From Duncaniella muris (GTDB lineage: Bacteria; Bacteroidota; Bacteroidia; Bacteroidales; Muribaculaceae): a stretch of DNA of 64,000 bases. Below, piece by piece: positions 16,069 to 55,601 of this stretch. The stretch's first letter is position 1. Each line of letters starts with the position of its first letter. A program made the translations under genes and the position numbers. The DNA is taken from contig NZ_PUEC01000016.1 in NCBI RefSeq assembly GCF_003024805.1, positions 1 to 64,000 on the forward strand, read 5' to 3'. The notes under the pieces are model-generated. The model did no database searches. It was not told where the DNA came from and saw only the letters and a list, made by a program, of their open reading frames with translations.

Positions 16069-16479
16069 TTAAACAGAGAGCGCGACCAATTCTTTGCCAA
16101 GGTGGTTGAGGGCACCTACTATTTTCTCAGCTTGTTTCGGGCGTGGCTTGGAGCGTCCGGCTGCGTAGTGCCAGAGTTGGCGCTGATTTATGCCTGTAAT
16201 ACATTGCAGGGCTGCAAGAGAGAAAATATTCTGATAGTGATTCAGCAGACTCTGCACATCAAATCTGTAACGGATAGCTACATCTTTTTCAGCCAGAATC
16301 GGAGGATATTCAGTGCCATCGGCCTGACAGCATTCAACATAAAAATCAATGCTTTCTCGCACATACGGTTCAAAACCGTCGAAATCGCCTTCGTATGCAA
16401 CGACCCAGCCCGGAATAATGTCGCAAGAGGCACTATATCCTGAGGGGGTCTTCGATGTATTGATAGTCAATGTCTGCAT
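16069..16479 (-). CDS. hicB: HicB-family antitoxin with C-terminal DNA-binding domain
   Basis: A 136-residue protein. The N-terminal half (residues 1-70) shows the HicB RNase H-like fold pattern: SGYSASCDIIPGWVVAYEGDF, with the spaced acidic ESIDFYVECC helix. The C-terminal part (about 75-136) is a Cro/C1-like helix-turn-helix (LAALQCITGINQRQLWHYAAG, then KPRPKQAEKIVGALNHLGKEL). Known role: binds and neutralises HicA and represses the operon. Unusually, it does not follow hicA directly: 205 bases separate them, including a hairpin and an inverted-repeat element whose end touches this start codon. Confidence 0.82.
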   Translation of the reverse strand: MQTLTINTSKTPSGYSASCDIIPGWVVAYEGDFDGFEPYVRESIDFYVECCQADGTEYPPILAEKDVAIRYRFDVQSLLNHYQNIFSLAALQCITGINQRQLWHYAAGRSKPRPKQAEKIVGALNHLGKELVALSV

Positions 16480-16480
16480 A

Positions 16481-16566
16481 TAAGTAACTCTTCAATATTG
16501 AACGATATAATATACATAAGTAGCTCCTAAGGATAATCTTTTAAATTAATTTTTCAGAGTTACTTA
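16481..16566 (-). repeat. Inverted-repeat element copy 1, between hicA and hicB
   Basis: An 86-bp element bounded by TAAGTAACTCT inverted repeats (16481-16491 and 16556-16566). Read on the minus strand it shares with copies 2 and 3 a central TCC...GGAG palindrome, an ATG, and the right end TTGAAGAGTTACTTA. The right end stops one base before the hicB ATG. The internal reading frame MYIISFNIEELLICRH overlaps the hicB start and is conserved as MYIISFNFEELL in copy 2. No target-site duplication is obvious. Confidence 0.75.
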
Positions 16567-16588: not shown

Positions 16589-16617
16589 AATAGCGCGGGC
16601 ATCATGCCCGCGCTATT
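16589..16617. terminator. 12-bp GC-rich hairpin between hicA and the element
   Basis: AATAGCGCGGGC and GCCCGCGCTATT pair around ATCAT. It lies just downstream of hicA on the minus strand, so it may reduce read-through from the toxin into the antitoxin gene. The T tract is weak on both strands. Confidence 0.5.
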
Positions 16618-42915: not shown

Positions 42916-43115
42916 TAAGTAACTCTGAAAAATTAATTTATACTATATGCGGAATTTATTCAGAGGCAGAATCGAGGAATGAAGAGGGAGTTTATAGACA
43001 TAAACGACCGATGAAGAACTTGATTCTGACCGGAATAAAACCGCAGAGAGTATAAAAGATCCTCCATAGGAGATACTAATGTACATTATATCGTTTAATT
43101 TTGAAGAGTTACTTA
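42916..43115 (+). repeat. Inverted-repeat element copy 2 with nested inverted repeat
   Basis: A 200-bp element bounded by TAAGTAACTCT (42916-42926) and AGAGTTACTTA (43105-43115). The right 60 bases match copy 1 closely: AAAGATCCTCCATAGGAG, ATG, then TACATTATATCGTTTAAT and TTTGAAGAGTTACTTA. Compared with copy 1, 116 bases are inserted (42939-43054), themselves bounded by TATACTATATGCGG and CCGCAGAGAGTATA, an 11-of-14 inverted repeat. A TAATTTTG -7-like box sits near the right end. Confidence 0.75.
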
Positions 43116-43348
43116 AAAATTGTTCCAGGAATCCGGCCCTGATTGAGAACCATTGTGGCGGCAGGGGTGTTTATAAAATAGAAATTCTCACATCCGTATG
43201 CGTTTGATTTCAACTGCAGACCTCTTTTTTCGCCAATGCGGCACAGTGCATAGTGAATCGGCAGGCCTGATTTAAACCGAACAATAAGGTCCGGAACATT
43301 TATCCATTCTTTCTGATTTATGGTAACACGAAAACTTATTGATGCTCT
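43109..43348 (-). pseudogene. C-terminal fragment of an unrecognised protein
   Basis: On the minus strand a frame is open from 43348 to a stop at 43111-43109, with no start codon at its beginning. It encodes about 79 residues with protein-like composition, including EWINVPDLIVRFKSGLPIHY, ALCRIGEKRGLQLKSNAYG and FINTPAATMVLNQGRIPGTI then FK. Its 5' part overlaps the oppositely oriented gene at 43320, so the rest is missing. The stop codon lies inside the end of repeat element copy 2, suggesting that the element's arrival shaped this remnant. Family unknown. The opposite-strand small frame at 43079-43204 is more likely its shadow. Confidence 0.35.
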
Positions 43349-54677: not shown

Positions 54678-54715
54678 ACCTGAGGCAAAACCTCACAAGG
54701 CTCTAATAAATCCAG

Positions 54716-54764
54716 TTAGTCCGATTAGTCCGATTAGCCAGATCGGACTAATCGGATTAATTTT
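54716..54764 (+). terminator. Terminator of the tricorn-type gene
   Basis: TTAGTCCGATTAGTCCGAT pairs with ATCGGACTAATCGGATTAA (19 bp, one mismatch), followed by TTTT. Each arm is itself a direct repeat of TTAGTCCGA. Confidence 0.8.
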
Positions 54765-54799
54765 CGTTTCAAAGCACTCCAATAAAAAGACCCTCGGCT

Positions 54800-54848: not shown

Positions 54849-54918
54849 TAAGTAACTCTGAAAAAGATCATCCATCGGAGCTGCTTATGCACATCTGTTA
54901 ATTTTGAAGAGTTACTTA
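54849..54918 (+). repeat. Inverted-repeat element copy 3, ending at a start codon
   Basis: A 70-bp element from TAAGTAACTCT (54849-54859) to AGAGTTACTTA (54908-54918). The middle GATCATCCATCGGAGCTGCT and TATGCACATCTG match copies 1 and 2, with the ATATCG part deleted. A TAATTTTG box lies at 54899-54906. The ATG of the DUF3791 gene starts at 54919, the next base. The internal ATG frame is only four codons long (MHIC). Confidence 0.75.
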
Positions 54919-55134
54919 ATGACATTTGATCAACTGGACTTCACCACATATTGTATAGGCGCACTCTCGGAGAGACTCAAACTCTCACAGCCAACAGTAT
55001 TCCGAATGCTGAAAGACTCGGATATTCTTGGCAGCTATATTGTGCCCGGCTACGAAGTGCTTCATACATACAGTCCCGAATACATTGCCGACGACCTTGT
55101 CAGTCTCATGAAAGAAAGAGGGGTAATACAATGA
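54919..55134 (+). CDS. DUF3791-like small protein, first of toxin-type module
   Basis: A 71-residue protein: MTFDQLDFTTYCIGALSERL, KLSQPTVFRMLKDSDILGSY, then IVPGYEVLHTYSPEYIADDL. The 'F..YCI..LSE.L..S...V..ML...G.L..YI...YEVLHT.....I.DD' pattern matches DUF3791, a short family found beside DUF3990 proteins in gut bacteria. The middle resembles a helix-turn-helix, so DNA binding or antitoxin activity is possible (inference). It begins directly at the end of repeat copy 3 and overlaps the DUF3990 gene by four bases. Confidence 0.72.
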   Translation: MTFDQLDFTTYCIGALSERLKLSQPTVFRMLKDSDILGSYIVPGYEVLHTYSPEYIADDLVSLMKERGVIQ

Positions 55135-55601
55135 AAGTCTACCACACATCAACCATTGAAATAATCAATCCTGACATCATTCATTCCCGCGAAGGTCTTG
55201 ATTTCGGCAAAGGATTCTACTGCACAGTGCTTCGGGAACAGGCCGAAGCCTATGGATTGCGATTCTCGCTCAGGGGAATTCCAGCAATACTCAACGAATA
55301 CGTCCTCGACTCGGCCTATCTCGAAGCCAACATCAGGCAGTTTGTGTCATATGATGAAGAATGGCTTGACTTCATCATGGCAAACCGGCAGAATCAGCCG
55401 GTGACAGACTATGAAATCATTGAGGGAGGAGTAGCCGACGACAAGATATTCCGGACAATAGACCTGTATCTTTCAGGCGACATCACCAAAACCGACGCGC
55501 TCAACAGACTTAAATACGAAAAACCAAATCACCAGATTTGTTTCAGATCACAGAGCGTTATAGACCGATATCTGAAATTTGTTTCATCTACAGAATTGTA
55601 A
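55131..55601 (+). CDS. DUF3990 protein, putative ADP-ribosyltransferase-fold toxin
   Basis: A 156-residue protein. MKVYHTSTIEIINPDI and LDFGKGFYCTVLREQAEAYG give a 'YH.S' and a 'GFY.T' block spaced like the His and Tyr blocks of H-Y-E-type ADP-ribosyltransferases (His5, Tyr30 here); Glu76 or Glu77 in SYDEEWLDFI could be the third residue. The DUF3990-typical YEIIEGGVADDKIF and NHQICFRSQSVIDRYLKF follow. NAD-dependent modification of a cellular target is an inference; the family has no assigned function that I can cite. ATGA overlap with the upstream DUF3791 gene, and four bases before the next, indicate tight coupling. Confidence 0.72.
   Translation: MKVYHTSTIEIINPDIIHSREGLDFGKGFYCTVLREQAEAYGLRFSLRGIPAILNEYVLDSAYLEANIRQFVSYDEEWLDFIMANRQNQPVTDYEIIEGGVADDKIFRTIDLYLSGDITKTDALNRLKYEKPNHQICFRSQSVIDRYLKFVSSTEL

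Follow-up and report, generated by a model that had tools for sequence, protein, structure and literature searches.

The window analysed here, which is the whole stretch of 64,000 nucleotides at the start of contig NZ_PUEC01000016.1 of Duncaniella muris, contains three short elements that share their termini, as had been proposed in an earlier note made from the letters of the sequence. The sequence TAAGTAACTCT occurs six times in the window, each time as an end of one of the three elements, and the count is still six when one mismatch is allowed, compared with a mean of 0.32 matches at that tolerance in the shuffled window. The inverted ends are perfect over 11 nt in all three elements and 84-90% complementary over 17-21 nt. 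Copy 2 (42916..43115, plus strand) is a full-length element of 200 bp with the arrangement TA...TA, and it is made up of a left end (42916..42945), a hairpin core of 84 nt with stacked tandem GA/GA steps (42956..43039) and a right end that contains TAATTTTG (43095..43115), all on the plus strand. Copy 1 (16481..16566, minus strand, 86 bp) and copy 3 (54849..54918, plus strand, 70 bp) keep both ends and are without the middle part of copy 2. When the three copies are aligned, with copy 1 reversed, both ends are common to all of them, and the TCC...GGAG palindrome followed by an ATG is present in 3/3, which agrees with the original description. None of the elements (70, 86 and 200 bp) contains an ORF of at least 80 aa.

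Copy 1 lies between hicA (PF07927; 16685..16882, minus strand) and an ORF of 136 aa (16069-16479), and on the minus strand it stops one base short of the ATG of the latter. The position is as reported. The ORF, which had been called hicB, has no Pfam match at E ≤ 0.01 and a weak match to HTH_60 (E = 0.26); the neighbouring gene encodes HicA. Between hicA and copy 1, at 16589-16617, there is a GC-rich inverted repeat, perfect over arms of 14 nt, that resembles a terminator, in which case the 136-aa ORF beyond it would need its own promoter. The same insertion of copy 1, with the same flanks, is found in the related genome G019 (L032). Copy 3 ends at 54918 and directly adjoins the ATG, at 54919, of a DUF3791 gene (PF12668; 54919..55134, plus strand), the downstream partner of which is a DUF3990 gene (PF13151; 55131..55601, plus strand). 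This pair (54919-55601) matches the PADLOC candidate defence families PDC-M13A and PDC-M13B, and just upstream of copy 3, after a 1103-aa ORF, repeated and inverted TCCGATTAGT-like units are located at 54711-54765. In G019 the site of copy 3 (L427) is occupied by a 75-bp version, in which a short frame starting from the ATG of the element stays open and overlaps the start of DUF3791; the window version, which is 5 nt shorter, closes that frame. Copies 1 and 3 are thus found beside toxin-antitoxin-type genes, but this association does not extend to copy 2, which is preceded by an OAD_beta gene and has an ORF without family assignment on its other side. There is no start codon at the end of copy 2, and the next ORF of at least 80 aa begins at 43320.

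The three window elements are MITEs, that is, short, non-autonomous and non-coding members of a family that is spread over the whole genome. A 21-nt end pattern, with up to three mismatches, gave 17 forward and 14 reverse matches in the genome of D. muris, a few of which are ends of the related IS, and the reversed-pattern control gave none. The copies in this genome fall into two classes, one of about 200 bp and one of shorter forms that keep the ends without the middle; copies 1 and 3 belong to the short class and have lost the core by internal deletion. Dispersed copies of the element are present in relatives too. In order to find sites without the element, the flanks of nine insertions were joined and searched in 16 genomes of the same genus, and clear empty sites were obtained for two of the nine, namely copy 2 and the L002 element. 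At the site of copy 2, G019 has an uninterrupted sequence with a single TA where the window has TA-element-TA; the empty site of L002 is similar, again with a single TA. Since the site in G019 is empty with one TA, copy 2 was inserted with duplication of TA. The remaining queries of this search found the copy 3 site occupied, not empty, in both genomes, or gave partial matches or none, and a distant match to the joined flanks of L008 in G008 (70%) aligned poorly. A separate empty-site search among the retrieved loci yielded a single candidate, which was rejected as a false pair. The flanking TA taken alone is uninformative, being present in 112 of 129 copies compared with 109.8 by chance re-pairing. 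At the one syntenic site compared, copy 2 is either present or absent and not inverted, which gives no evidence for phase variation.

The first 30 bases of copy 2 match the end of an IS630-type element that the same genome carries at four contig ends (27/30, counted by eye). Only the C-terminal fragment of that element is visible there, and the end of its ORF resembles that of decayed elements in the relatives G009 and G025. In a decayed copy in G025 (L064/L102), a DDE_3 transposase (PF13358, E = 2.6e-8) lies between such ends, and a search for DDE_3 in the genome of D. muris gave no match. Taken together, the DDE_3 domain between such ends in G025 and the TA duplication identify the end family designated A (TAAGTA...) as derived from IS630/Tc1-mariner. 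The RUP repeats are another case linked to an IS630-type element. The suspicion that the window elements belong to a short, non-autonomous, MITE-like family is therefore upheld by the two one-TA empty sites, the end in common with an IS630-type element and the dispersed copies in relatives.

The middle part, present in copy 2 and missing from copies 1 and 3, has a pronounced secondary structure: the whole element folds with z = -8.65 relative to shuffled sequence. Both the loss of the middle and the folding had escaped the earlier note. A covariance model (R1) was built on the 84-nt core; the window core scores 97.1 bits with it and is the sole core detected in the window by model R3 at E ≤ 1. 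In an alignment of 15 long copies from several genomes, 19 of the 26 predicted pairs were changed on both sides, and with 39 sequences double (compensatory) changes were seen in 22 of 24 pairs. Over these 39 sequences 94.9% of the cells are paired, compared with 69.7% in shuffles and 35-50% when the structure is slid along the alignment; the arms of a MITE may stay complementary by copying at the DNA level, which would also produce double changes. Outside the pairs, the conserved letters are arranged as stacked tandem steps in which GA stands opposite GA, 1-2 bp apart, a feature that was read from the alignments and then checked with patterns. Of the 37 representatives from Bacteroidales, 30 have two such steps and 24 have three; for the 12 from Rubritalea the numbers are 8 and 3, and for 980 shuffled sequences 6 and 0. 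These counts use hits chosen by the model and are therefore not blind. The loosest form of the pattern was dropped, as it matched 900 of the 980 shuffled sequences.

Among 46 representatives with less than 90% identity, there are 963 Watson-Crick pairs, 60 G-U, 13 A-C and 57 others, and the excess of G-U over A-C points to the strand as written, either as RNA or as single-stranded DNA. To judge by the covariation and by this excess, the pairing and the unpaired GA steps look selected on one strand, so the core most likely works as RNA. Rfam 15 contains no family that matches the core, whether in the window stretch, in 20 Bacteroidales loci or in 11 Rubritalea loci; snoRNA-like matches to the window stretch were far below the gathering score and were discarded. 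A match to the TPP riboswitch, also below the gathering score of Rfam, was noted near one core-bearing element (L121, 825-923). One core in G009 (L099, 677-797) carries about 37 extra nt, partly palindromic, in the terminal loop, and this loop therefore tolerates insertion.

An automatic search detected inverted ends around 107 of 124 aligned core copies, with the core starting 37-42 nt inside the end in 97 of the 124. The same search found ends at 19 of 123 random places in these loci and in 7 of 124 copies with shuffled flanks, never at 37-42 nt, so that chance does not account for the peak at this distance, though it may account for some of the less strict end assignments. The 17 copies for which no ends were found, owing to contig-end cuts, decay or, in the case of L204, the length of the element, are retained in these counts. 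The core reads inward throughout, its 5' side being closer to the element end in each of the 107 placements. The ends themselves belong to different families, namely A, B (GAACTCATTTAAAC-like), C (AGAGGTTGTTTAAA-like) and others. In family-A MITEs the core is located near one end only; family C elements, of about 325 bp, have one core per end, and both of these read inward. Identical TNA flanks are found in 19 of 21 cases in family C (9.5 expected by re-pairing), and identical flanks in 4 of 10 in family B (1.0 expected). The flanks of family C point to a TNA duplication, as against the TA duplication of copy 2. Most core copies (107/124) overlap no called ORF, and the position lists showed by eye, which is not a formal test, no pattern in the orientation of the core with respect to replication.

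L204 in G137 is an IS5-type element of about 1180 bp with inverted ends and TAA on both sides. Its interior encodes parts of an IS5-type transposase, with segments of DUF4096 and DDE_Tnp_1 in two frames. A start codon is not clearly apparent, and the element is perhaps no longer intact. A core reading inward is located at each of its ends (E = 1.5e-19 and 5.2e-8, with 9.9 kb searched and filters off). A shortened IS5-type element, L309, keeps a transposase fragment together with both cores. The decayed IS630-like elements L101 and L102 have ends of the type described above, and neither has a core, which means that not every transposon of this kind requires the core. The core thus has the appearance of an end module that belongs to IS5-type elements and is carried by IS630-type MITEs too, which would have acquired it by capture.

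Matches to R1 at E ≤ 0.001 are present in 162 of 297 sampled genomes of the host family, Muribaculaceae, and in 19 of its 30 genera in the sample. Eight genomes chosen for having copies gave between 20 and 95 matches each, 438 in all, when 150 candidates were scored in each genome. As these elements served as seeds for the models, later hits are not a blind sample. With stricter filters, one genome of 345 was positive in the phylum sample, that of D. muris itself, and 8 of 247 in the order sample, five of them outside the family. An exact pattern of 28 letters matched at least 115 stretches among the GTDB contigs; among the 80 matches listed, the titles are of the Bacteroidales type except for one Paenibacillus and one Rubritalea profundi record. 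The MAG titled Paenibacillus sp. NALB_7961_12 (JAMPHR01; L247, L248, L260, L280 and L308) is probably a mislabelled genome of Muribaculaceae that corresponds to the same-genus genome G012. Rubritalea profundi belongs to the Verrucomicrobiota, and 21 of the 33 matches listed for it have E < 0.05; several of its cores sit, as judged by eye, between inverted ends of their own. A model that included 15 of the R. profundi matches was positive in 21 of 387 Verrucomicrobiota genomes, Rubritalea among them. The motif pattern matched 8 of 23 Verrucomicrobiota loci, several of the misses (L395, L412) show the motif by eye, and some of the weaker hits in this phylum may be chance. Plasmid and phage collections gave no match; in IMG/VR the strict pattern gave no match and a looser one found one family-A element on two contigs with the same sequence.

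We consider it about an even chance (probability roughly 0.5) that these elements are MITEs moved by an IS630-type transposase and that their hairpin core is a portable end module acting as an RNA insulator. A transposase of the IS630/Tc1-mariner type would move the MITEs in trans into TA sites, the full-length copies carrying the core about 40 nt inside the left end and copies 1 and 3 having lost it by internal deletion. The core itself is a module common to other kinds of mobile elements, and it reads inward in every copy for which ends were found. Because of this orientation, the core RNA would be formed when outside transcription runs into the element past the nearer end. Such an RNA could pause, end or process stray transcription, perhaps by binding a host factor, and the insulation would keep outside transcription from disturbing the ends or waking the transposase, which could make the insertion less harmful. 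The elements and their structure are demonstrated by the sequences, and the insulator function is suggested by that structure.

The earlier note had explained the elements differently, as a mobile sequence that provides a promoter or leader and so activates whichever gene sits at the right end, and copies 1 and 3 do abut start codons; insertion into short intergenic gaps already brings the ends close to start codons, and the explanation is unlikely in the light of the larger sample. Among the 67 family-A copies flanked to left and right by genes at up to 400 nt, 41 have a co-directional gene on the right (p = 0.09), and gene starts fall at -20 to +25 nt of the right end, set in this test at a fixed distance from the core, in 21 of 41 cases compared with 11 of 33 for the left end (p = 0.16), so neither orientation nor distance is significant; the other groups have no excess of co-directional right-hand genes over the opposite arrangement (3 to 3 in B, 10 to 15 in C and 5 to 11 among the unassigned). 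The promoter-like box ascribed to the right end survives in part. Of 128 distinct copies, 49 have the motif TAnnTTTG in the right arm, for which shuffled arms predict 4.6, and 23 have it in the left arm, but it is accompanied by TTG 19-22 nt upstream (the -33/-7 pattern) in only 10 of the 128, and it follows that a -10-like box is enriched while the full promoter is not conserved. The enrichment of this motif in the right arms of family A is fully explained by neither the insulator nor the promoter reading. A conserved mini-ORF in the right arm was considered and rejected, as the frame is open in some copies and closed in copy 3 and in other species (by eye); for a mobile leader it is likewise unfavourable that no right-arm reading frame is kept in all copies examined. 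The idea that the repeat is simply the ancestral 5' leader of one toxin-antitoxin family, to which the neighbourhood of two of the three window copies could point, deserves practically no credence, given the copies dispersed over the genome, the OAD_beta gene beside copy 2 and, decisively, the precise empty sites in a relative.

The main rival to the insulator concerns the molecule in which the core acts, and it is a serious if doubtful possibility that the core works as DNA, in the form of a hairpin, extruded or single-stranded, that lies at the transposon end and would aid the assembly of the ends by the transposase or a host protein. The fixed spacing of about 40 nt across families would suit an end-recognition module, though it suits an RNA insulator too, and so would the presence of the core at both ends of IS5-type elements; GA/GA steps are, moreover, stable in DNA as well. 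It is more difficult for such a role to account for a core that is common to elements with different target duplications and sits near one end only in family-A MITEs, for short copies that retain normal ends without it, and for the ratio of G-U to A-C of 60 to 13, which is a better fit to RNA. The simplest view, that the core is an inherited palindrome of an ordinary MITE hairpin without a function of its own, draws on the fact that MITEs usually fold well and that copying between arms can keep them alike, yet it appears quite improbable, because the GA steps, which are not palindromic, persist on one strand whereas the stems change (30/37 and 8/12 compared with 6/980, counts that are not blind) and because the core is common to elements with different ends.

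If the RNA insulator reading is carried further, the core could represent an unnamed class of structured RNA with stacked GA/GA steps, a portable transposon end module that IS5-type elements carried and IS630-type MITEs captured, that spread over Bacteroidota and Verrucomicrobiota, and that insulates against inward transcription by binding a conserved host factor; this wider proposal is put forward tentatively. MITEs are usually regarded as transposon remnants that contribute nothing of their own. If the reading is true, a covarying and strand-specific hairpin that keeps its distance from the ends of elements with different transposases would be a functional non-coding component that mobile elements have in common. 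The finding would also offer a way to study how transposons tolerate outside transcription, a marker by which repeats could be recognised in common gut bacteria, and a specific RNA for which a binding partner can be sought.

MITEs with folded transcripts, such as RUP and BOX, are already known. RUP and BOX of Streptococcus pneumoniae are small MITE-like repeats with tightly folded predicted transcripts and pairing inverted ends, and some of them are co-transcribed with genes (PMC3049150). They resemble the window elements in being small, dispersed and strongly folded, and differ from them in that the portions of that paper available to us describe no core common to different transposon families or phyla (PMC3049150). 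Correia and ERIC repeats alter expression when transcribed, for example through RNase cleavage or promoters (cited in PMC3049150), and are likened to the window elements by their description in that source only. BrickBuilt, MITE239 and MITE464 are repeats of Porphyromonas gingivalis, another species of Bacteroidales; BrickBuilt and MITE464 have IS5-type ends (e.g. GAGACTGTTGCA) that resemble the family C ends found here (GAGGTTGTTTAAA), but their interiors consist of tandem repeats, and a GA-step hairpin is not described in the sections of the source available to us (PMC4596501). The window elements are classed here as MITEs, and their core as a structured module that has no name so far; neither the family nor the core is described among the literature matches listed, with subscription papers and preprints outside the search. 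In IS10 and IS50, RNA structures in read-through transcripts protect the transposon by hiding the ribosome site of the transposase. The core is like these in that it concerns RNA made by outside transcription, and it differs from them in being an end module, one that is kept even in MITEs without genes.
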